NCBI GenBank assembly: GCA_010015675.1
Contig: ML977039.1
Coordinates: 1 to 13,845, forward strand
Source of the DNA: Byssothecium circinans
Lineage: Eukaryota > Ascomycota > Dothideomycetes > Pleosporales > Massarinaceae
DNA length: 13,845 nucleotides
Direction of reading: 5' to 3'
Made by a program: the position numbers and the translations under genes. The notes under the pieces were generated by a model that did not search any database, was not told the origin of the DNA, and was given only the letters and a program-made list of their open reading frames with translations. This document shows positions 1-13,845 of this stretch, piece after piece. Numbering within the stretch: position 1 is the first letter of the stretch; the number at the start of each line of letters is the position of its first letter.

Positions 1-880
1 TTTTATTTATAACCTTAACTCTTTTTTTTTATTTATAACTTTAATCCTCTTTTTTATTTATAACTGTAACCCTTTCTTTTATTTATAACCTTAACGTTCT
101 CTTTTATTTATATCTTTAACCTTTTTTTATATTTATATTCTTAACCCTCTATTATATTTAAATCTTTAATCCTCTTTTATATTTACATCTCTAACCCTCT
201 TTTTTATTTATATCCTTAACTCTCTATTCTATTTATAACCTTAACTTTTTTTTTATTTATAACCTTAACCTTTTCTTTTATTTATAACCCTAACCTTTTC
301 TTTTATTTATAACTCTAACTTATTCTTTTATTTATATCTTTAACTTTCTTTTATATTTATATTCTTAACCTTCTCTTATATTTATATCTCTAATCCTCTC
401 TTATATTTATATCTCTAACTCTCTCTTATATTTATATCTCTAACCCTCTTTTATATTTATAACCTTAACCTTCTCTTTTATTTATAACTTTAATCTTCTT
501 TTTTATTTATAACTCTAACCTTCTCTTATATTTATAACCTTAACTCTCTTTTTTATTTATAACCTTAACTTTTTCTTTTATCTATAACTTTAACTCTTTT
601 TTTTATTTATATTCTTAACCTTCTATTATATTTATATATCTAATTCTTTCTTATATTTATATCTTTAATTTTCTCTTATATTTATATCTCTAATTCTCTC
701 TTATATTTATATCTCTAACCCTCTCTTATATTTATAACTCTAACCCTTTTTTGTATTTATAACTGTAACCCTTTCTTATATTTATAACCCTAACCCTTTC
801 TTATATTTATAACCCTAACCCTCTCTTATATTTATATCCTTGACCCTCTCTTATATTTATATCCTTAACCCTCTCTCTTT
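1..880. repeat. 25-bp subtelomeric minisatellite containing telomere-like words
   Basis: About 35 imperfect copies of a unit of about 25 bp (24-26) run from the window start to about 880. Each unit has an AT part (ATTTATAA or ATTTATAT) followed by a variable CCCTAACCCT-like part and a pyrimidine spacer. The best-preserved units lie near 780-830 and contain AACCCTAACCCT, two perfect telomere hexamers (TTAGGG on the minus strand). Other units carry C-to-T versions such as CTTTAAC, TCTCTAAC or TCTTTAATC. The C-rich strand reads inward from the left, the orientation expected if the chromosome end lies to the left. No reading frame is supported. The variants could be mutated telomere repeats or an independent satellite that captured telomere words. 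Confidence 0.9.
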
Positions 881-1904
881 ATTTCTTTCTATATTTCTTT
901 TTTTTTAACTTTATCTTTTTTTATATACTTGTAATACTATTTTATACTACTTCTTTTTATAACTTTATACTCCTTTTATTCTTTTTTTAATTTACCTTTT
1001 TTTCCTTTATCTTTTTTTTATATTTATTCTTTTCTTACTTTTTCTTTTTTCTTTTTATTATATTTTTTCTTTTCTTTTCTTTAATCTTTATCTTTCTTTA
1101 CTTTTCTTTTATTACTTTTTATTTCTTTTCTTTTATAACTCTTTTTCTTTTCTACTTTATTATTTCTTTTTCTTTCTCTCTACTACTATATTCTATTCTA
1201 CTTATTTCTTTTATATTTCTTTTATATAACTTTATAACTCCCTTTATATTATATTATATTATATTTTTATATTTTTACTCTTTCTACTTATCTTTTTCTA
1301 CTTTTATCTTTTATACTTTATTCTATTTTTACTATCTTATATATCTTCTATTTCTCTCTACTTTCTACTTTATTATCTATAACCTCTCTTTCTACTACTT
1401 TTTTCTTTTTTATCTTTTACTCTACTTTATATTTACTTATAAATAACTACTTTTATTATTTATTTTACTCTACTATCTTCTAACCTATTTTATTATTATT
1501 ATCTAATTTTTTTTCTTTTACTATACTTAACTATATATTACTCTTCTCTCTTTTATATATAATACTAATCTTTTTCTATTCTAAAAACTCTCTCTTTAAC
1601 TTCTTTAAACTTTTTATTTTTTCTATATTCCTAATCTTACTTTTAACTCTAAATACTTTTATATTTACCTTTCTATACTTTATTACGCTATTATTATATT
1701 TTATTTATTATTTTATATCTTCTACTTTTATTCTTTTATAAACTTTTGTCTTTATCTTTTCTAAATTCTTTATACTTTTGTACTATTACCCTACTATAAT
1801 CTTCTTCTTTTCTTTCACTTCCTTTTATTCCTTTTTTTTCTCTCTTCCTCTTTTTTCTCTTTTATACTTATTTATTTATATACTACCTTATATATTTCTA
1901 TTTA
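881..1904. other. G-free pyrimidine/AT-rich low-complexity tract, no gene
   Basis: Irregular T-, C- and A-rich sequence with no clear period and no gene. Counting the + strand by eye gives only nine G residues in positions 1-1920, while C remains common, so the minus strand is nearly free of C. The tract starts where the 25-bp periodicity fades and ends where the coding sequence of unit A stops, near 1905-1925. It lies directly downstream of the A gene and between it and the telomere-like repeats. It may be decayed minisatellite, but I could not align it to the 25-bp unit. Confidence 0.8.
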
Positions 1905-4900
1905 TTATCTCTCCCTATCTATATACCGCATCCGCACTATGAATTCTATTACTACCTAACTTATCTTATTCGCCTCTATCCCCCCCCATTATTTCTTCTG
2001 CCCAAGCCAATATACTATCGCCTGGAACTCCTGTTTCTTTAACCTCTCCTTTCTTTCTCCTGTCTTGCTTTGCCACTCCATCTCCCCTAACCACCCATCT
2101 TCTCGCATCCTATCCTTTACAAATTTCTTAAACTCATCTGTATATGCTATCTATGCCGCGAATATGCTTTTCACTAACACTCCCTTATACTGGCACCTAC
2201 TATCTGCCGCTTTCCTATACCCTCCTAACTCCATGTTCATCTCAAAACTCTCACATATGGCCTGCGGCAACCCGTAATCATAATAACACGAATACGGCGC
2301 CTACCTCTTGCTCCTCTCAAACTCCTCCACCCCTCTTATCACGTCATCTACCTCTTCCTTAACGCAATCCTCTAACTAATGCCTATCCGCCCTTGTCTCC
2401 CTATATATCTAGTACTACACGCAACCTACCCTCCACTCCTCTATTATCGTCACTAATCTCCCTACCTGCATCGCCTCCCGTGCCTAATGTGCTACCTCCC
2501 CTGTGCCCTACACCCTCCGCGCCATCTACTGCCTCTTAAACTTAGCTTAATCCTCTGCCTCCTCCTCTTCCTCCCCCTCCTCCTTACTCTCCTTACTCCC
2601 CTCCCTCCCCTTACTCTCCTCGCCCTCTGCCCTTTCTCCCTCTATTACTTCCTCGTCACTCCCTACTGCTATTACCCTTATCTGCTGGCAACGCTAGTAC
2701 TTCTTCACTGGCCCCCTACACTTCACCCTATCCTCCCTCCCATCTATCGCCGAATCTAACACTACCCGCATGCAACCCTCCCCACTGATAAACTCTCGCA
2801 CCTCCGGCTTAACGTCCTCCCTAAACCCCTGCCAAATAACCCCTCTCTGTGTCCTCTAGAATCCTCACATAATGATGGCCTTACTAGCCTGTCTATCCCT
2901 CCCCGCCCATCCGCTCTCCTGCGCGTACTGCTATATTAAATAGATTATCCCTACGTGTACTACCGCCTAGATCGTGGGCGCGTCCACCCCTAACCCTAAC
3001 GCGTTCATCACCGTGAACACCTACTGCTGACCCCTCGTCAACTGCTCCACTAACACCTACTTCTCGCGACTGCTGCCCACGTTGTGGTAATAATAAACGC
3101 AACCTAACACCTCTACTAACCGCTCCATCTTTGCTACCATGTCGCAATACATGATTACCTGCCCTAGTGGCGGGTACTTCCATCACAACCCCTCTACTAA
3201 CCGCTGCACTGCCTTCTCTTTGCCTCCCTCCTCCCCTGCGTCATACTCCTAGACCTGATACTAGATGTTAGCCTACGCCGTCGCCCCACGGAACCACTAG
3301 CACCGTGCCTTGCCCGGCAATCCCATCAACCAGATAAATGACTCCTCCTCGCTAGGCCGCAACGTCACTATTAAATACACTATCTGCGTCTCTATGGTAA
3401 CTAACCCGCGCAACGCTAACATCTAGCTCCTCTACCCTTGCAACGCATCTAATACTACGTGGTACTCGTCCACTATAATCTAGTCTAACCGCCCCATTAA
3501 CTACTATTAGTGTATGAACTGCCTGAACGCCTCTCCTACTACTGACTTAGGCGTCACTAATACCACCTAGGCCCACTTATGCGGCCGCTGGCTACTCTAC
3601 TCCACGCATGTAATGCCCACCCACTCGCACTAATCCCTTATGTCTATACGCAATGAAACTAACGGCACTACCACCACTGTCACCCCGCTGGACACCAACG
3701 CTAGCAACATAAATAACACGCTCTTTCCCGCCCCCGTCCCTATAATTACCACTACGGGGCTCTTCCCCCACATGATGGCCTACAACGCCAGCTTCTAGAC
3801 GCTATAGAACCGTGCCTACTCGCCTACTATCTACCTTAATCCCTCCTTTACGTCTATATGCCATATTATCTTCCATTGCTAGTACTCCTCCTCCCTGGCT
3901 TCCTTCCACGATGCTCTCGCGCGGCTGCTCTGCGCCATGGGCGCCTCTATAGCTAACGCCATCTATAAAAACGCGTGCCATTCCGTGCTAACCCGCCGTA
4001 ACGCCCTCCTTTTCCTCTCCATGCTAAACGTGGCCTCATCTATCCCCCGCCCATATATGATATTGGCCACGCTAGAACTGTGCCCGGCCTAGATGTTAAA
4101 TGCCTCATCCTCCTCTCCCTCCTCTCCCTCCTCGTCCGCCTGGATCAACGCCTTCACTGCTAACGTGTCATTAATGTACCTATAGAATATGGCCTTAGTC
4201 CCGTGCCTCCACATCATGATGTTAATCTTGACCCCTATGTGCTTCAATGACTACTCTTAGATAGCCTGTTGCACGCGGTTGCCGTTCCACAACCTTAACT
4301 AGATTAACCTATCCTCTTTATCCCCTTCATCACCTTCGCCCTTACCCCCCTTACTTCCCTCCTCGTCCCCTCCAGTTCTGTCCCTCTGGCTTAGGCTTAG
4401 TAAACGCGGCCTCTTCCTCTATAGCATCATCTATATCTTCTCTAGCTTAGGCTCCTAAATATACGTGCTATTAACTACGTCCCCCCTAATCGCCGTCTTA
4501 ATCTGCACCTAAAATGGGTAGATGAACCATAAATAATACACCACTAACGCCCTGACCTCCTGTGGCACGTATCAATGGATCACCTTGCTCTTCCCGCTTA
4601 ACCTAACGTTCTTGTGGTACGCCGTCACAAACACTACTAACCTATTCTTGATGGATACCCCGCGCATGTCTCCGTTAGCGCTATTCTTGTACTGGATCGT
4701 TATCGCCTTACTGCCTCGCGCTAGCAAACCGTACGTTATGTGCACCAACGTGATTAACAACCCTAAAAACGTCTCTATCGCCCATTAATACGCCTCCACC
4801 TGCTCCCTCTTCTACACCGCCCCCTCCCCTATACTCCTAGCCGCCCTCGTGCCTAGGATGTTAATGAATACCTCCCGTAACCACTTCTCCCTCCCTACGC

Positions 4901-6767
4901 GCTTCCCTAACCACGCTGGTGGGCTCTCTGCGTCCGTGGCGCCTTAGTTCCGCGCGTCTTCTATGAAACTCTACCCCATCCTCCTCTCTGCTAGGTTGTC
5001 CACTAAATAGTCCTAATAGATCGCTGGCAACGCCGTAGTCCCCTCTATGATCCCCCCCTCCTCATCCACCTATAATAATATTAGCTCCTCTAATAACTAC
5101 TACCGCGCCTCCGCGACCGTGCCGTGGACCATTAACCATAACTGCGGCATGCTAAACTAGATGTTGCCGTATAATAACGTGTTACCTACCTAATCTACTA
5201 CGCTCTCTATGCTGGTCGTGTATTGGATCTTCATCCCATACGCCTTTAACCGCTGGATGCAATCAATGGGCATCAGCTCACCGCCGTGCCGCGTTAATGT
5301 CATGAACTAGTCAGCCATCTCTCGTATAAACTAGAAATGGCTAGGCGCCATCTCCTACGCCATCTCGTACCTTTATCCCTCTCTCTGCAATTTGGCCACG
5401 CGTTCCTAGCGCATCTGTGTGGATTAGTACAATACTAACATGCGTGTGATGGTGACCACGGCCGCCTGCTTGGGCGTGTATATTAATGGGCTTATCCACC
5501 TATAATCCGCATTAATCCCTAACACTGCTATAGCGCTAATTAACGCGCTGCCGTGCTCGTCATCCCCTAATAGGTAGTCTAGTAACCCTATCATAAACGC
5601 CATCACTAACCCCTCTACCTGCTCCTCCTGCTCCTAGTCTAGCTTATCTTTATTGCTGTCTAACTCCTTAAACTAATCCTTCTCTTCGTCCTCCTCTTCT
5701 ACTCGCCCTACCGCCATCTTAATCTTCTATAATAACACCTCCTACTAGATTATTAACTGGTATAGCGGCCTTTAGTTCTCTATATCTATAACCCCCTCCT
5801 TATACCTTACTACTACTAATCCGTGCGTCTACTAAATGTACCACATGATCTCTAACTACCACCCGCTGTACCTAATCATTGTCTTCTCCATCTGCCGCGC
5901 GTTAAACGGCTTTTCATTAGTAATGTTGCCCGTCTTACGGCAGTTAATGTAATTTATGGCTGCTATCCTAACTACCTCCGCCCTTAACGCCTGCTACGCC
6001 TTCTAAATCACCATCCGCACCGCCTAATACACCCTATCTAACGCCTTCTCCCGCCGTACTAGTGCCTAGGTTAACGTTAACAACCATTCATGGTTTAACC
6101 CCTTCAAATGCTTCGCCCACCCGGCCTAATCCAACCACGCGTTGAATGCGAAATAGTCCTAGTCAGCCTAGATCTAGGATATCCTCTCCTACTCAGCCGC
6201 GTTCCATCTTTCCATGGCCTAGCTCAACAATAACTGCACCGCGCTTCCTATGTCGCCATCCTCGTCCTCGCTGTGCGTGGGCTGCTAGACGTTACTAGGC
6301 TAGTTGACTTTAAACAACCATCCTAACCATCCTACACCCTGTAACTTTTAGCACCACACCCCTTCTGTCCACATCGTCTGTACCTCTGCCTAGTAGCCCT
6401 TATACTGGTGGCCTCTCTTCCTACTATTCTCCTATCTATGCTCTTTTTAATAATGTTCCTGCATCCGCCTTCTTTCCTAATTGATGTACCCACACGACCT
6501 GCATTAGAGCCCGTCATAAAATACGTGCAAATGCTCTATGGGCTTAGCTACCCCGTGTAGGATCACCACCTCTTCCTTAGTAGCTGCCCATCGACGATAC
6601 ATTACCGTAGCCCTAATAATGTCTGATCAGGTTCTCGCTATCAATTCCTTATGGTTGCTGTTTAAATGCGCCCACACCTGCGACTTTAACACGGCATGGC
6701 GGTGCTCCCTGCACACAGCGACGCGCTGCGCTGGCAAATACTTAAAGATGATGTCTAATTGCTCCAT
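1905..6767 (-). pseudogene. Unit A: full-length telomere-linked RecQ-type helicase with recombinase-like region, stop-riddled
   Basis: One frame of 1,621 codons runs from the ATG at 6765-6767 (MEQLDIIF) to a TAA at 1905-1907, with no net frameshift. A zinc-finger-like start has C19, H34 and H39. A tyrosine-recombinase-like region follows: R684 (LLARGSK), K719 (AYHKN) and R854-H855 (MWRHGTKAI). The RecQ-type helicase has Walker A GTGAGKS (K1015), motif II DEYH (1100-1103), motif V ALGLGVD (1256-1262) and motif VI QESGWAGRD (1283-1291). The C-terminus keeps the late telomere-linked-helicase sequences CYYDYGLPQAIC, CQYKGVL and WGGIEA. By family comparison from memory, DEYH replaces DECH and the Trp at 1287 replaces Arg, both C-to-T-type changes. 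Numerous in-frame TAG/TAA codons sit mostly at expected Gln positions; at least two TGA occur, one in VIH*YVPQEV. The length matches a complete family member. The recombinase assignment rests on motif spacing only. Confidence 0.9.
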
Positions 6768-7074: not shown

Positions 7075-7172
7075 GGCTTAATCCATTTAATTGAAGCTAG
7101 CAAATGGATTAAGCCCCTAGTCTTCAGCGCGCACAGTGCATAATTAAATAGATTAAGGGTATAATCTATTTA
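7075..7172. repeat. Two-hairpin palindromic element at the 5' edge of unit A
   Basis: First inverted repeat: GGCTTAATCCATTT (7075-7088) pairs perfectly over 14 bp with AAATGGATTAAGCC (7102-7115) across a 13-nt loop containing TTGAAG. A core follows, TTCAGCGCGCACAGTGCA (7123-7140), with its own GCAC-A-GTGC dyad. Second inverted repeat: TAAATAGATTA (7145-7155) pairs perfectly over 11 bp with TAATCTATTTA (7162-7172). The arms of both hairpins are versions of one word, ATCYATTT. A matching element lies at 13736-13829 upstream of unit C, with the same core and the same spacing between the first hairpin and the core. It could be a recombination site, replication or transposon terminus, or operator. 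Confidence 0.85.
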
Positions 7173-7714
7173 CGTATATAATGATAGCCTAAGAAGTTTC
7201 TATTACTTATTATGTTACCTACTACGTCCGCGCTGACTACCACCACGGCTGCTAGGTTGCTCTCGCCATGCTTCTACTCTATACAGTTAATGCCGTACTT
7301 TCGCATACGGCCTACTAAGTCCTTAATGAGCGCTTAATACGGCACCACCACGACCGTTATCCCGGCGCCCTCCAAGCAAGCCGGCACACTGAACAGCAGA
7401 CTCTTGCCTCCGCCCGTCAGAAGCACAACGACAAGCGGCGTCTGTCCGTCAAGCACCGCGTGCAGCGCCTGCTCCTGCTCGACTAATTGGAAGCCAACCT
7501 CCTCTTGACTAAGCACCTGCTACATTGCCTTCCTAACAGCCTCGTCCTAATTATCTCGCGTCCGAGTCCCCTTCTACTGTAGTGCTAGCTCTTCCTCCCT
7601 AATCTCATCTCCACTGCTGCGCTCCCATCTCTTCCCTACCTTGCTTACCTCGCTGCTGCTGGTCCATGCCTCTTTCTGCTCGCCCTCACCCCCTTCAAGC
7701 CCTAAGAAGCGGTG

Positions 7715-7793
7715 CTACAGCGTGCTGAGCGGCCGGAAAGCTTTAATCAAGCGTATGCTGAGATGCTTGATAATGTCTATCAGCACGCTGTAG
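7715..7793. repeat. Nested perfect inverted repeats inside unit B
   Basis: CTACAGCGTGCTGA (7715-7728) is a perfect 14-bp inverted match of TCAGCACGCTGTAG (7780-7793). Inside it, ATCAAGC (7746-7752) pairs with GCTTGAT (7765-7771) over a 12-nt loop. The structure lies in frame within the coding sequence of B, between the recombinase-like region and the helicase (the IDIIKHLSIRLIKAFRPLST stretch), a stretch that looks conserved in the family. It may be a coincidence of coding constraint, but 14 perfect base pairs is long. Confidence 0.75.
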
Positions 7794-9322
7794 TTCCCTA
7801 CCCCTATTATCGTCATCCATGCGCTCTACAGCTTAACTAAGTCTTCCCCCTCCTCGTCTACCTCAGCCTCCTCCGTCTCCCTAATCTTATCTTGATACCC
7901 CTTGCTGAATGACTCCCCGACCACCACCCGGCTGATACTGACGGCCGTGTGCTGGTAGTCCAGCGTGTGCAGCTCAACCCTAAGTCTCTTACCCGTCTCC
8001 CGCCTGAGCGCTCGCGTTAGTCAATCCGTCCCCTACAGCCCCTACTCGTCGGCCCACACGTAGTCACTGAAGCTGCCGCTAAGCACCTGCACTATTAGAT
8101 ACTCCTAAAATGGCTGCAAGTACGCTAAGTACATTACCATGACCTGCCTAAGCCGCAGTAGGAGAAAGCACGGCACTACCTTTAGCTTGTCCTACTATAA
8201 CTATGACTTGTGATAGCGGACCACGGTCATCACCTGTCTATCTATGATGAAGATGTTGCGGTCCTGCAGCAGCCCATTCTGATGCCGCATCGTCGTCACT
8301 TCCAACCCCTAACCCGGCTGCCCAGATGTCATGTGCACGCAGACCATCAGCAGCATTAAGAAGCGGTTGACTTAACGCAAGTACCACTTTACCTACTTAA
8401 CATTCCACCTGCCATCGCTTGACTAAAGTGTACGGCCTCGCTTACTCTACTCAGCCTAGGTTAGCATCCACTCTAGCTTGTCCTCAAGATTGTTGTTACG
8501 CTGTTTGACGAAAGACATGCCTCACTAGGTGAACGTGACGTCATTAACAATCTACTTAAGCTTAATGATGAACTAATCCTCAGCCTTTACTACCTAGAAT
8601 AGCTCCTCTTATAGCATCTGCTTGGCTTCGGCCACCATGTCCTAAGCCATCTTGCGGAAATGGCTAATGTAGATCAGTCAGCCGTTCAAGTAGAAGATCC
8701 TCTTATCTTTTAACTAGTACGCGTTGCCTGAGTTACCAGCCATCATCGCAACGTACTTGCCGTACGCTAGCAAGCTGATCGCCTCGCTCATTAGACTGTA
8801 TGAGCCGTCAGCTAGATACTTCTCTCTCACATACAAGAAGAGTTCCTGGTCCTCGTCCGTCTGCTCATTACGGCACGCTGCTGGAAGCAGTTTCTCTACG
8901 GCGAGCACTCTTATGCAGTATACCATGCCGGCGAGCATGTACGAGTAGTTCTTTGCCGTGCGCAAGTGATTCGCCTCAGCGTCGATGCCCAATACGGCGA
9001 GAAAGTGAATGAGCCCGCTACTGAACGGCTAATCACCCACGGACTCAAAGATGAATGATGCAAGTGCGTTAAGTAATGCCTCTAGCTAGGGTTCCTAATT
9101 ATCATTATCATTGTCGTTAAGCATCTCCTACAGCGTTACTACCAGCTCCTTCTGACGGCCCTTCTAGTAGAACAGCTCGCGCGCATCCTTCATAAGATCC
9201 GTCTCTTCTATGCGTCCGCTTTAACGGCGCGGGTGGCTGTCCCTATTGCTGTCACTGTCACTTCCGTCGCTGCTACTCCTAGAGCTCTAATTATCTAAGA
9301 TGTCCTCTTCATCCACCCGCTT

Positions 9323-9358
9323 GCCGTCTACGTTGCTGTTGCCGTCTACGTTGCTGTC
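9323..9358. repeat. 18-bp tandem duplication in the linker of unit B
   Basis: GCCGTCTACGTTGCTGTT is followed directly by a second copy differing at the last base, then by a partial third copy (GCCGTCC). The period is a multiple of three and encodes GNSNVD-type repeats within the acidic, Ser/Asn-rich linker. It looks like a replication-slippage expansion that kept the frame. Confidence 0.8.
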
Positions 9359-10273
9359 GCCGTCCTCACCGCGGCTGCTTCATTCTATCCTCGCCTGCTC
9401 ATCGGCCATAATGCGTAGAAAGTAGCAGACAAACTTAACTATATAGCTAGCGTAGCGGGCCTGACTCTCTAGGTTCTATAGTTAGGCTATCGGCCGTTAA
9501 TCGACCTCCTGCCGCTTTGCACTCTAGAGCCACCGTCTCATTTCCTGTACAAGCGTTGACAGCCTAACCACGCTCCTCTCTACTAGCAGCTTAACTAGCT
9601 TCGCAGCGCGCTGCAGCTTCACTTCACCCTAATCGGGCAGTCGGATCTAATGTGCGAGATGCGCTAGATTCCGCTTCACGAGATACTCTAGCTATCCTGT
9701 CCGCTTGAACTAGCTAGTCTTGTTAGTCTTCACAGCCTCTACGTCCATTACCTGCGCCTCCTCTTTATGCGCCTGCGTTGTTACCTCCCATTCGGCTAGC
9801 CTTGCACGGATGACGTTGGCCGGCTCGCGGGGGACGGACGACGCGCTGTTATTAACTGCTGCCTTGACGATGAAATATCGCCGCTGCCTGCCAGCCTAGA
9901 AGAACGTCTGCACCTTAACTTTCTAAAAAAGCATGCTTGTATCACCCTTCCATAGCAGCCCGTGCTTACTCTTGCAATGCTTTCGTAGCCTGTCCTGATT
10001 AATTATGATGAAGTTGCAACCTTCCTTAGCGCATTGAAGCCTATTAAGTGGCTCTCCCAACTCCTTGATCAGCGGACCTAGCGGCGGCGGCAGTTCAACG
10101 TCCTTAGGCTTCTTGATCCACTAGTACCTATAGTGCTCTACAATCCTCTCCCTTTCTTTGCTCGCCATAGTATGATGATCACGCAGATGCGCGTTTAGAT
10201 TCTGTACACTAGTAGCATGCTCCCTGCAGACAAGCACCTTGTACTTGCAAAGATACTGAAAGTTTTCTTCTAT

Positions 10274-10638
10274 ATTCTTAAACGATAGCGGTGATTGGGT
10301 TCGGCTGCTATTTCTCCTGCAGTGGGTTGCGCTTCATTGTGTTAACGTTACTACGGGTGACCGTGCGTCCTAGCAGAACTCTATTGCTGCTAGAGTCTAC
10401 CCTCGCCTTGACCGCCACCCAACGTAGAGAGTAGAGCTGCAAGGTAGGGGATCAGTGCTCCTGATGCCGCTGAGCAATAGTTGCCTACAAAATTTGTTCA
10501 GAGAATGTGTCGCTGCGGAGTGGATTATCCCTCCTATTCCCATGGATCATCCCTATCCGCGCCCTGGATCTGGGCTAGCGACCCTAACGCTAGACCTATT
10601 CCACCACGGATTAGGCATAATCCGTCGCGTCCTCTCGG
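10274..10638 (-). other. Leader and 5' boundary region of unit B
   Basis: Non-coding stretch between the likely start of B and the truncated end of unit C. I see no TATA box and no copy of the TTCAGCGCGCAC core found upstream of A and C. It does hold hairpins at 10575-10593 and 10606-10625 near its distal edge, plus nearby GGATTATCC and GGATCATCC words (10520-10555). An ATG in the middle (10350s, minus strand) is out of frame with B and quickly meets a stop. Confidence 0.6.
10575..10625. repeat. Two short hairpins at the 5' edge of unit B
   Basis: CTAGCG (10575-10580) pairs with CGCTAG (10588-10593) around an ACCCTAA loop. ACGGATTA (10606-10613) pairs perfectly with TAATCCGT (10618-10625) around GGCA. 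The second shares the GGATTA/TAATCC word with the first hairpin of unit A. The outer hairpin ends about 14 bp from the last codons attributable to unit C, the same arrangement as at the A/B boundary. It is probably the B-subfamily counterpart of the two-hairpin element, but the core sequence is absent. Confidence 0.6.
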
Positions 10639-13509
10639 TTAGGCTTCTCTGCGTGCGGCGGCTGCGGCCCTTGTTCCCCTGTTGCGCCGCGCCTTGAATG
10701 CGGATGGCATCTGCAAAAATGCGTGCCACTCCTCGCTCACCCGCCGGAACGCTGCCCGCTTGGACTCGGTGCTGAACGTGGCCTCGCTAATTAGCCGCCC
10801 GTATATCAACCCGCTGATGTGGGAACTGTGCCTAGTCTGTAGATTAGCTGCTTCATCTTCCTCCTCCCCCTCGTCATCCTCGTTAGCCTGTACTAACGTC
10901 CGCACGGCTATCTTGCTATTGATGTATTAGTGGTAAATTGCCTTAGTCCTATACCTCTATCCCATGATAGTTACGGGAACGCCTATGTACTCTAACGAAG
11001 CCTTCTAGATGGCGTGCTTAACCTAGTTGCTATTCCATAGCTTAACCGCATGGCCATCTTCTTCTTCATCTTCATCTTCCCCTTCCTCTTCCCCTTCGCC
11101 TCCTACCCTCTGCTGTGAACGGTCATTAGTTGTCTGCTTCTTTCGCTGGGGCATGGTCCATTCCTTCTCTAGCTTAGGTTCCTAAATGTACGCGCTGGAC
11201 TTGACCTCCTCGCTACCTAATATGCGTTCCATCTTTTCCGCGAACGGCAGTGTGAACCATAAATAATACACCATTAACTCACCTACTTCACGCGGCAAAT
11301 ATTGGTGGATCACCTTAGTGCTCCCTAACTACCTAATGTTTTTATAGTACATGGTCACATATACCACTAACCCACCTTTAATAAAAATCCCCTGATTCTC
11401 TCTATTTGCGCTGTTCTTATACTGGATCGTCACTAGCTCGGTTCCTCATGCTAGTGACCCCCCTATCATGTGCACTAATGCTGCTAACTCTTGCTAGAAC
11501 TCCCTTATAGCTTATTAGTATGCCTTAATCTAGTCTTGGTTCCATACCACGGACCTGCCAACGGCTATGGCCGCTCTAGTCGCTATTCTGTCAATGAACT
11601 CCCTTATTAACTATAGCTCATTAATTAACCGCTGCTCTAACCATGTTAGGGGAAACTCCGCATTGATGGCATCTATGTTACGGGCATCTTCTATGAAACT
11701 CTATCCTATTTTCTACTCGGCTAGGTTGTCCACCAACCTGTCCCAATGGATTTTAGGTAATGCGGTAGTGCCTAGTACGACGCTGCCCTCCTTATTAACT
11801 TGTAATAGCATTAACGCCTCTATTAATTGCCTCTGCGTGCTAGCAACTATGCTATGGATCATTAACCGCAACTGTGGCATGCTGAAGCAGATATTGCCGT
11901 ATAATAATGTATTATCTACCTAATCTACTACGCCTTCTGCGCTGAAACTGTACCAGATCTTCATCCCATATGCCTTCAACCGCTGGATAGCGTCGATGGG
12001 AGTCAGCTCACCATTATACTTAGTCAACGTTATAAAGTGGTTAGCCATTTCCTTTATAAAGTAGAAATGGCTAGGTGCCATGTCTTCCGCATCCTGCTAA
12101 CTCTACCCTTCTGCCTCTAACTTAGCTCTACGGACCTTGCGCATCTGCGTTAACTAGTACAACACCAACATGCGCGACACATTGATGACGGCGGCTTGCT
12201 TAGGCGTGTATAGCAACAGTATCATCCACCTATAGTTAGCGTTAATCCCTAGCATAGCCATGGCGCTAATCAACGTACTACTATACTCGTTATCTCCTAG
12301 TTCATGGTCTAGCAACTATAATACAAACTTTAACACCTATTCCTCTAGCTCTTCTTCTTGTTCTGCGTTGAATCCGTCGTCGCTGTCGGACTTAGAAAAC
12401 TAATCATCCCCGTCCTCGTCCTCGTCTCACCCTACTATAGCTTTGATTTTTTATAATGGCCTTTCCTGCTGGGCGGTTAAACGGTATGGTAGCTTCCTAC
12501 TTTAGACCTTATGCTCTTTATCCGCGCTAATCTTAGGCAGCTTATAGGTCTACTAAATGTACTATATAATCTCTAACCACCACCCGCTGTACTTAACCAT
12601 GGTCTTGCCCGTCTACCATGCGTTAAATGGCTTCTCGTTAGTAATGCCGCCCACCTTACGCTAGTTAATGTAGTTCATGGCCGCTAACCCTACTATAGTA
12701 GACCGCGATGACTACTAGGCCTTATAGATGACTATCTGTAATGCCTAATACACCTTGTTTAACGCCTTCTCTCTAGGCCTTGGCTTCTAGACGGTAGTCA
12801 ACAGCTAACTGTAGTCTAAGCCCTTTAAATGTTTCACCCACCCAGCGCGGTCTAGATACGCGTTAAATATGTACTAGTCTTAGTCAGCGTTAATATGGTC
12901 CTGCTACCTCTTCCTAGAAAGCTCTATATTAGTGGTCGCCTGGCTTAATGACATAGTAATAGCTTGCTAGATGTCCTTATCCTTATCCCTATGGTTAGGT
13001 CTATGCTGGTTTTGCTTAGGCTCGCTGACTATAAATGGCTTACCTAGATAGCCCGCGGGCTAGAACTTCTAGTATGACACCCCTTCTATCTACATGATGG
13101 GATGCTCTAGCTGCTAGCCTTTGCTAGGTCGGCCTCACTTCCTTGTGTTCTACTAGCCGTGCTCGGACCAGCAATAGTTCTAGATATCTTATATGGTATG
13201 ATATATGCGACTGCACGCTTAATTACTAGCTATAGACCCTATGCACATGAATCTATCCTTGTATACTTCTAGGTAGGGGATGGGCCTAGATTTAGGCTTA
13301 GGAAACACGACTTCATCTTCTGTAGTCGCCTATTAACGGAATGATCCAGCGGCTAAAACTACTTTCTAGCGCGTCTTTAGGGTGAATTCCTTATGCTTAC
13401 GGTCTAGGTGGGTACGCAACTGGGACCATACCACGGCATGATGGTGGGTCTTACAAATAGCAACGCGATATGCCCACGAATATTCAAAAATACTGTTTAA
13501 CTACTCCAT
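10639..13509 (-). pseudogene. Unit C: A-type recombinase-like/helicase gene truncated before the helicase domain
   Basis: One frame of 957 codons from the ATG at 13507-13509 to TAA at 10639-10641, without net frameshift and with about 51 in-frame stops (about 48 TAG/TAA, 3 TGA). It is clearly paralogous to unit A over its whole length: a MEQL start, zinc-finger-like C19/H34/H39, shared stretches such as LISAMAMLGI, YTPKQAAV, QRLKAYGMKIWY, SFIEDARN, TIQYKNSAN, EPKLEK and TKAIY. In the recombinase-like region the Arg box codon is TGA (11446-11448, residue 688; CGA in A), and the second box has Tyr853 where A has His855, so the site is doubly damaged. The match to A ends after WHAFLQMPSAFKARR-like residues, about 170 nt before Walker A would appear. 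Many stops fall at the same positions as in A. It probably lost its 3' half when unit B was joined. Confidence 0.9.
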
Positions 13510-13735
13510 GCTGCTGGGTTAGCTCTATACAACGTGATTTTGGTGATGGTAGTGGTGTCGCTGGCTTTACTTACGCGCGCATGGGTTGCTATTATAAATA
13601 TCAACCCCCTAGCACTTCCACCTATATTGCTCGCGAGCCTAACGTTAGATTATTACATGGAAACCTATGCTGGATTCGCCGTGTCGCGTTGCACCAGGCT
13701 GTAAAATTGCAGCCTTGACTTCCGTTGTTTTGGAC
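13510..13735 (-). other. Leader of unit C
   Basis: Non-coding stretch upstream of C. On the minus strand it contains TATTTATA at 13593-13600, about 85 bp before the ATG, comparable in position to the TATA box of unit A. A small inverted repeat, AGGCTG/CAGCCT, lies at 13696-13715. A + strand reading frame here (13470-13718) shows no recognisable protein and is not called. Confidence 0.5.
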
Positions 13736-13829
13736 CCTATCTGGTTTTTTGAAGTTCGTAAATCAGATAGGCCCCTGTATTTCAGCGCGCACGGTGCACC
13801 TAAAAACCAGATTGAGTCTATCTGATTTT
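13736..13829. repeat. Two-hairpin palindromic element at the 5' edge of unit C
   Basis: First hairpin: CCTATCTGGTTT (13736-13747) with AAATCAGATAGG (13760-13771), one mismatch, loop containing TTGAAG. Core: TTCAGCGCGCACGGTGCA (13781-13798), differing from the unit A core at one base. Second hairpin: AAAACCAGAT (13803-13812) with ATCTGATTTT (13820-13829), one mismatch. All four arms are versions of ATCTGRTTT, while in unit A all four are versions of ATCYATTT. The order and the spacing from first hairpin to core match those upstream of A. The window ends 16 bp further on, so the sequence joined to its outer edge cannot be seen. Confidence 0.85.
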
Positions 13830-13845
13830 CGCATTGTAGGATAGG

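Follow-up and report, generated by a model that had tools for sequence, protein, structure and literature searches.

The two-hairpin feature that occurs twice in our window (the whole stretch analysed, 13,845 bp at the tip of a Byssothecium circinans contig in a RIP-mutated 48-Mb genome) belongs to a subtelomeric mobile element, of which it forms the final ~110 bp. This element is probably mobilised by a recombinase and joined at TAG via one defined right end, with the telomere as its other end. Its copies share an exact end with varied flanks, a TAG in the target, one orientation and one polarity of truncation, and the encoded protein combines OrsD and RecQ helicase domains with the residues of tyrosine recombinases (YR) and a YR-like fold. 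With its RecQ domain and multiple copies at chromosome ends, the unit A gene is a telomere-linked helicase (TLH).

Right ends of the subtelomeric units

A first-pass annotation had described two hairpins flanking a near-identical core in A and C. This pattern is real, but its extent was set too short, as the feature continues to a sharp end at 7187 and 13844, respectively (Table 1). The near-identical core was borne out (TTCAGCGCGCACRGTGCA at 7123-7140 and 13781-13798), and inverted arms at both sites differ between A and C yet are largely paired, as claimed. The arms are not those of independent helices, however: in each A or C end a single family-specific word is written four times to give the four arms, and arms two and three are direct repeats. 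All seven A-type ends in the fetched loci stop at the identical point. The end of unit B (10643) differs from A and C in word and layout, and 8 of 300 shuffles gave a dyad as good as that of B. Searching for the core with up to two mismatches gave 38 matches. A check for cores without hairpins, covering all but five two-mismatch matches (two on C1 and one each on C13, C38 and C39), found one, on C14, that lacks the dyads. C14:655679 and C63:29427 (4 mismatches) were rejected as copies, the motif standing alone with the dyads absent. Rfam returned 0 matches at the gathering threshold and thus no known structured RNA.

Table 1. Features of the window.
Feature	Position	Strand	Sequence or remark
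Distal tail of unit A	1..1900	+	pyrimidine-rich, almost G-free
Telomere-like 25-bp satellite in unit A tail	4-884		35 copies
Unit A gene, RIP-broken	2028..6767	-	OrsD + tyrosine recombinase + RecQ helicase; both limits chosen by analyst
RecQ helicase domain, unit A	2853..3869	-
Tyrosine recombinase region, unit A	3960..5165	-	from alignment and fold
Catalytic residues, unit A	R 4718-4716, K 4586-4584, R 4208-4206, H 4082-4080, Y 4055-4053	-
Right end of unit A, candidate recombination site	7075..7187	+	terminus ..ATGATAG 7181-7187
A dyad 1	7075..7115 (arms 7075-7088/7102-7115)	+	GGCTTAATCCATTT / AAATGGATTAAGCC, spacer 13 nt
A core between dyads	7123..7140	+	TTCAGCGCGCACAGTGCA
A dyad 2	7146..7171 (arms 7146-7155/7162-7171)	+	AAATAGATTA - 6 nt - TAATCTATTT
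Unit B	7188..10643		telomere side cut by right end of A
Right end of unit B	10606..10643	+	terminus ..TTAGG 10639-10643; 12 B-type ends in fetched loci
B dyad	10606-10625	+	ACGGATTA-GGCA-TAATCCGT
Unit C	10644..13844		telomere side cut by right end of B, ahead of helicase domain
Right end of unit C	13736..13844	+	terminus GATAG 13840-13844, one base short of window's end
C dyad 1	13736..13771 (arms 13736-13747/13760-13771)	+	CCTATCTGGTTT / AAATCAGATAGG, spacer 12 nt
C core	13781..13798	+	TTCAGCGCGCACGGTGCA
C dyad 2	13803..13829 (arms 13803-13812/13820-13829)	+	AAAACCAGAT - 7 nt - ATCTGATTTT, fixed C.A mismatch

Folded as single-stranded DNA (+ strand only), both ends are more stable than their shuffles (A, z -4.96, 0/200 equally good; C, z -2.35, 1/200). 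Pairing was then compared across 29 RIP-decayed ends (7 A and 22 C), a set made up without the five tandem C ends on C96 and C99 and the 12 B ends. Within families, C helix 1 keeps its pairing beyond shuffling (205/264 cells; 0/2000 shuffles equally good). Neither Watson-Crick pairing in A helix 1 (80/84 cells; 1745/2000) and A helix 2 (72/84; 899/2000) nor pairing in C helix 2 (182/242; 560/2000) exceeds shuffling, so that within family A and for C helix 2 the arms vary without kept pairing, an outcome named beforehand as speaking against the first-pass reading. Pooling A and C gave 0/2000 shuffles for each helix, a result that mostly reflects the single A/C split. In C, one pair per dyad departs identically in 22/22 copies (G.T in helix 1, C.A in helix 2). 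The loop-core pseudoknot suggested by the first-pass annotation is not conserved; the one pair that varies (columns 23-55) forms in 12 of 29 copies.

Two options had been offered for these arms. Selection on folded DNA or RNA has the kept pairing of C helix 1 in its favor; the other three within-family tests, the fixed departures and the pseudoknot speak against it. Because of the fixed departures in C and the mostly lost within-family pairing, words bound by a protein are a better fit than hairpins under selection. The second option, a dyad read by a protein that we infer to co-evolve with it, is the better supported, given the four-copy family word, the exact element end and the adjoining tyrosine recombinase gene. 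Dyads of this sort are bound by tyrosine recombinases, some of which, such as the integron integrase, act on folded single strands.

Each family has a single stopping point (..RATAG for A and C, ..TTAGG for B), beyond which the copies continue into differing sequence, in many cases the interior of another, cut unit; that the element has a defined right end is well supported. Repeats in the flanks past the end were seen only at tandem partial units and a few common target sites, and inside the window C's flank consists of one base followed by N. Of 19 independent A/C-type junctions, 16 had a TAG already present at that point in the best uninterrupted target (background 3.4%). All 33 ends on long contigs face the centromere, with the telomere side variably truncated, and 33/33 scored ends lie 60 kb or less from one or another of 19 contig ends, several of which carry telomere repeats.

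The gene beside the right end

The unit A gene begins ~420 bp inside the right end of A. Its protein matches the zinc-finger domain OrsD (1.6e-14), DEAD (1.5e-11) and Helicase_C (3.7e-7) in Pfam and RecQ1 in the PDB (3.3e-17), and the genes on the - strand of units B (OrsD 4.3e-11, DEAD 4.3e-9) and C (OrsD 1.6e-11) have matches as well. In-frame stops are mostly TAG, with TAA and TGA also present, TpA is enriched, and reverse transcriptases genome-wide show the same mix of stops as the helicase genes. On these grounds a recoded genetic code was rejected in favor of RIP.

That the middle part of the protein is a tyrosine recombinase is well supported. The catalytic residues occur in order in the aligned rows that hold a letter (R 40/40, K 40/40, R 40/40, H 39/39, Y 38/38). 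At the HxxR histidine, a position that varies in some tyrosine recombinases, 0/40 rows have H, and the column holds M, S, I, L and others. The fold of the middle region resembles the YR catalytic domain and is closest to XerH, XerA and Cre. Foldseek by itself gave no significant match; VIA-align re-examines Foldseek's candidates, and absence there carries no meaning. In Pfam, the three proteins of the window match no DUF3435-type captain up to E 10 and neither Rep (HUH) nor PIF1, the helicase being RecQ.

OrsD-bearing homologues of this protein were found in Parastagonospora, Pyrenophora, Bipolaris and Fusarium. Genome contigs of bacteria and archaea yielded one weak match (L041) and two contigs that look fungal, and there was no relative among 39 pattern matches on viral contigs. 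L040 has an open frame of 1600 residues; before it come the C-terminal part of another copy, a gap of N and finally CTATC, which is the terminus on the opposite strand. L039 and L040 have three direct repeats in common (spacings 54/23 and 55/24), and their dyads are not beyond shuffling; this arrangement is only suggestive.

Proposed joining at chromosome ends and its alternatives

In the recombinase-mobilised element that we favor, the four arms would be YR-binding half-sites in two dyads, and the words would have diverged between element families alongside their recombinases. The YR would cleave the TAG at the terminus and link it to a TAG elsewhere, usually at another chromosome end, and the gene, pyrimidine-rich tail and telomere would travel along; we infer that joining is one-ended and that the target's tip is lost and replaced. 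RecQ is a 3'-to-5' helicase, and this part of the protein could proceed inward from the cut, unwinding the element. The element would require just one end, since the telomere would act as the second. Repeated cycles and erosion would produce arrays in which units are cut on the side facing the telomere, and RIP would kill copies. In its fullest form, which we put forward tentatively and with less than even confidence, the YR-RecQ fusion of a one-ended, telomere-addressed element would cut its own end at TAG, join a TAG in another arm and carry the whole chromosome tip with it, the telomere being the second end, and TLHs would be chromosome-end-swapping transposons, possibly reading the end as a folded strand.

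A two-ended YR transposon resembling Cryptons or Starships is a less likely source, in which a circular form would insert at TAG and later trimming and healing would leave right ends and truncated interiors. Starships carry their YR gene at one end and show short target repeats, direct and 2-12 bp long (PMC12153272, available part), Cryptons are flanked by 4-bp repeats (PMC7175516, likewise in part), on C56 a telomere has healed into a truncated unit, and the defined end is seen on the right side only, the left end being absent from the assembly. Before trimming, however, the distal half of the target would remain beyond the left end, and right-truncated pieces of this kind are almost missing (1 clear case in 59 segments); the remainders of B and C do not reappear distally within the window, and the 33/33 orientation demands an additional rule. 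Telomere-directed retrotransposition in trans would take the right end as the 3' end of a + strand RNA, with a reverse transcriptase reading the hairpins and a chromosome 3' end in CTA priming on the TAG at the terminus (cf. Terminons, MoTeR and FoTeR). The centromere-facing constant end, truncation on the other side, head-to-tail arrays, and the microhomology at the constant end and the fold near it recall Terminons as presented in part of PMC6431247, and reverse transcriptases are numerous in the genome, some of them close to contig ends, although among the RVT_1 matches listed, a minimum for the genome, none lies on C63. We consider this origin quite improbable: Pfam matches no reverse transcriptase to the gene frames of the window's three units, the required RNA is antisense to the element's gene, which supplies a DNA recombinase instead, and the 46 junctions listed, from three families, have neither poly(A) nor telomere repeats.

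Alternatively, the recombinase may use one strand folded as a hairpin, as at integron attC, with replication finishing a one-strand exchange that would be inherently one-ended. Pairing of the arms in both families despite their differing sequence, the stable folds of A and C, the kept pairing of C helix 1 and a fixed departure at one place, which could serve as a structural cue, are in keeping with this; we nevertheless rate it improbable, as within-family pairing is lost in 3/4 tests (though in dead copies), arms two and three are direct repeats as half-sites would be, and the layout of B differs. Spread of helicase genes by ordinary subtelomeric recombination, with the conserved stretch merely a promoter, draws on subtelomeric helicase genes being common to several chromosome ends (PMC4522978, in the part available). 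It is already disfavored, and very improbable, because homologous exchange would not halt at a single base per family with TAG in the partner, as at 46 ends of three families.

Known elements and the biology of telomere-linked helicases

Several known systems share parts of this arrangement. Helitrons have a hairpin ~15 nt ahead of a short terminal motif and a helicase; here, in contrast, the helicase is RecQ instead of PIF1, Rep has no match, the gene lies on the opposite strand and the end holds a four-copy word. Integron attC sites combine a tyrosine recombinase with paired arms of variable sequence and a 3-bp exchange region, whereas our ends have four-word dyads at eukaryotic chromosome ends, and use of a folded strand is putative. 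In Starships, too, the YR gene sits at one end, from which the captain reads inward; the present element differs in having no DUF3435-type match, a fused RecQ, a length of few kb, a telomere-bound position and no second end seen. Academ transposons are, to our knowledge, not YR elements. They carry a RecQ helicase (PMC3627910, available part). Cryptons are likewise small YR-encoding DNA elements of fungi, without terminal inverted repeats (PMC7175516, same part), and lack the helicase fusion, OrsD domain and one-sided subtelomeric arrays found here. Terminons, MoTeR and FoTeR share the chromosome-ward constant end, truncated far side, head-to-tail arrays and fold beside the attaching end (portions of PMC6431247, PMC12857005 and PMC4522978), but our units have no reverse transcriptase, join at TAG rather than at telomere repeats and encode a DNA recombinase.

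The TLHs of Magnaporthe, Ustilago (UTASa/UTASb), Fusarium and Zymoseptoria are likewise RecQ-type, multicopy and subtelomeric, with truncated copies, whereas here the protein also bears a tyrosine recombinase and the unit an exact dyad-bearing terminus joined at TAG. Telomere-linked RecQ helicases occur across many fungi and have been known for decades as odd subtelomeric genes. OrsD has been noted in Ustilago UTASb (PMC10532341, in part). A literature search, mostly within non-subscription sources, found no combination of a tyrosine recombinase or an exact TAG-joined terminus with TLH, and the available portions of PMC12857005, PMC4522978, PMC9594970, PMC12153272, PMC10532341, PMC6431247, PMC3627910 and PMC7175516 contain no link between tyrosine recombinases and TLH.

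The fused recombinase and the precise TAG-joined end offer a testable account of why TLH genes sit at chromosome tips and how they spread: TLH may be mobile elements for which the telomere serves as one of the ends. Attachment to chromosome tips by a constant end is known for retroelements (Terminons, PMC6431247, available part). If our reading is true, such attachment by a DNA recombinase would be an unusual mode of transposition and a possible cause of fungal subtelomere shuffling, and if the word families use different recombinases, they would provide a ready set of specificities for comparison.

Right Ends of the Subtelomeric Units

The positions that the first-pass annotation gave for the core and arms were borne out by the sequences of units A and C. 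The two-hairpin element that it had proposed is real and important; what went unrecognized is that the feature belongs to a telomere-linked helicase (TLH) element, as its candidate recombination end. Searching with the two ends by blastn returned 40 C-type and 14 A-type matches; four of the A-type matches are short tandem partials. The similarity among dyad-bearing copies ceases after ..GATAG, or after AATAG in a few copies, and beyond that point the sequence varies among loci; flanks recur beyond the terminus in tandem partial units and at a few target sites used repeatedly. This stop in similarity, together with the locus-specific flanks, indicates that the feature is an end. B, the unit between A and C, stops at an end of its own (..TTAGG at 10,643), and 12 B-type ends were present among the fetched loci. 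The end of A (7,187) abuts a cut interior of B and the end of B a cut interior of C, while C stops at 13,844 and is followed by one base and then by Ns. Partial units in head-to-tail arrays, and other features, are collected in the table.

Coordinates of arrays, satellites and other features of the subtelomeric units
Location	Feature	Remarks
Window 4-884	Pyrimidine-rich 25-bp satellite	35 copies, CCCTAA-like words; degenerate telomere-like repeat of the distal tail
C1:2100157-2103589	Head-to-tail partial units, 1,148 bp	End region kept; array joined at its own TAG
C96:21102-21324	Head-to-tail partial units, 74 bp	End region kept; array joined at its own TAG
C68:177501-177621	Head-to-tail partial units, 31 bp	End region kept
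C63:13846-27692	Long N run	Begins one base past the end of C; hides the target of C
C18:795859-798714	C unit split by another insert	Insert of ~1.8 kb
C96:21324-26200	C unit split by another insert	Insert of ~3.0 kb; ~4 bp of the interrupted C copy repeated at the insert
L039 907-4549	Two tandem LINE-type gag/endonuclease copies	Helicase gene directly downstream; CCHC knuckles assigned by eye

The genome comprises 48.4 Mb in 109 contigs, several of them closed by canonical CCCTAA telomere arrays; the window is bases 1-13,845 of contig C63. An excess of TpA and numerous TAG, TAA, and TGA stops interrupting otherwise open frames give the window the pattern expected of repeat-induced point mutation (RIP), and reverse transcriptases elsewhere in the genome show the same kind of breakage. 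The window gene has named homologues in Parastagonospora, Pyrenophora, Bipolaris, Aureobasidium, and Fusarium, a set that suggests a dothideomycete-like fungus. Long open TLH frames (1,851 and 1,600 residues) also occur in two loci, L039 and L040, filed as Planctomycetaceae and Erythrobacter MAGs, and these contigs look like fungal contamination.

Junctions, Targets, and Arm Words

We obtained an uninterrupted target copy for 31 of 46 ends and none for the other 15, collapsed the junctions by hand into independent events, and read the best native target copy. TAG stood in the target exactly at the position of the element's own TAG in 16 of 19 independent A/C-type targets, against a background of 3.4%; the remaining three read ATA, TAA, and AAG. 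B-type targets had the final G or GG of TTAGG in common in five of six cases. The element end was untrimmed in all 46 junctions, an argument against generic end joining. Each of two target sites was hit twice by different units: a palindromic AAAGG/CCTTT site in a B-like unit (L015/L023) is joined to a C-type end on one contig and, on a second contig, to a B-type end, with repeat D also joined within a few bases, and the TAATAAAC target was used by B in both an A unit and a C unit. Repeat D (L024, L025, L021) is a fourth subtelomeric repeat with a sharp right end (..TTCAACCTTCAT) whose terminus is not TAG; it adjoins cut C and B units.

When the arms are placed in structural register, all four prove to be copies of a single word, in the orientation <- -> core -> <-. 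The word is AAATRGATT in A; in C it is AAACYRGAT (first and third) or AAATYRGAT (second and fourth), with CC in place of YR in one copy. Because these C words differ, helix 2 carries a C.A mismatch and helix 1 a G.T pair, identically in 22 of 22 copies. The earlier proposal that arms vary while keeping their pairing was mostly not borne out within families, where pairing was no better than after shuffling in three of four tests. The lone positive result, helix 1 of C (0 of 2,000 shuffles as good), may stem from subfamilies of related C copies (GATAG versus GATTG words), and for this reason we do not take it to prove folding. Since the copies are RIP-decayed, absent pairing is equally no proof against it. 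A conserved multi-copy word at an element end looks like a set of protein half-sites.

Orientation, Distal Tails, and a Proposed Mechanism

The interior faced the nearest contig end in all 33 ends scored on contigs of known length above 100 kb (50 ends listed, 17 unscorable, every tandem copy counted separately). Of 59 family segments measuring 150 bp or more, 45 retained the right end, three were cut by the locus edge, and 11 lacked it. Ten of these 11 are simple-sequence tails, copies split by insertion or deletion, or divergent ends; the exception (C76:6295) is a B segment right-truncated at repeat F (GGTGCAAAGTATTAATA..), which is found beyond element ends elsewhere. A units with gene and tail stand at two contig ends (the window and C9), and a C unit with gene and tail stands at the end of C102, beside an N run; all these tails are nearly G-free. 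The A tail leads into the 25-bp telomere-like satellite, and the tail at the C9 contig end resembles that of the window. A truncated unit on C56 has a telomere-repeat cap.

According to published accounts, TLH genes are subtelomeric RecQ helicases (PMC4522978, PMC12857005, PMC10532341), Starships have a tyrosine recombinase at one end and 2-12-bp repeats (PMC12153272), and Terminons have one end attached to chromosome tips via reverse transcription (PMC6431247). Unlike Starships, the window proteins show no Pfam match to the captain family. One-ended telomere attachment is already known from Terminons, whereas a recombinase-helicase as its agent was not found in the literature searched. The combination of TLH and tyrosine recombinase was likewise not found in the open-licence literature searched, where "telomere-linked" with "tyrosine recombinase" returned 0 papers; this is no proof of novelty.

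The partner of the right end is likely the tyrosine recombinase inside the helicase gene. This enzyme could bind the arm words, cleave at the TAG that ends the element, and recombine with a TAG elsewhere, the triplet common to both partners being what strand exchange would test. From the cut, the helicase could unwind the element inward. Wrong-way joining would presumably yield broken or two-centromere chromosomes, and survival of centromere-facing ends alone would account for the orientation, with no need of a second end. Given the near-absence of displaced target halves, these elements may replace chromosome tips rather than insert into them.
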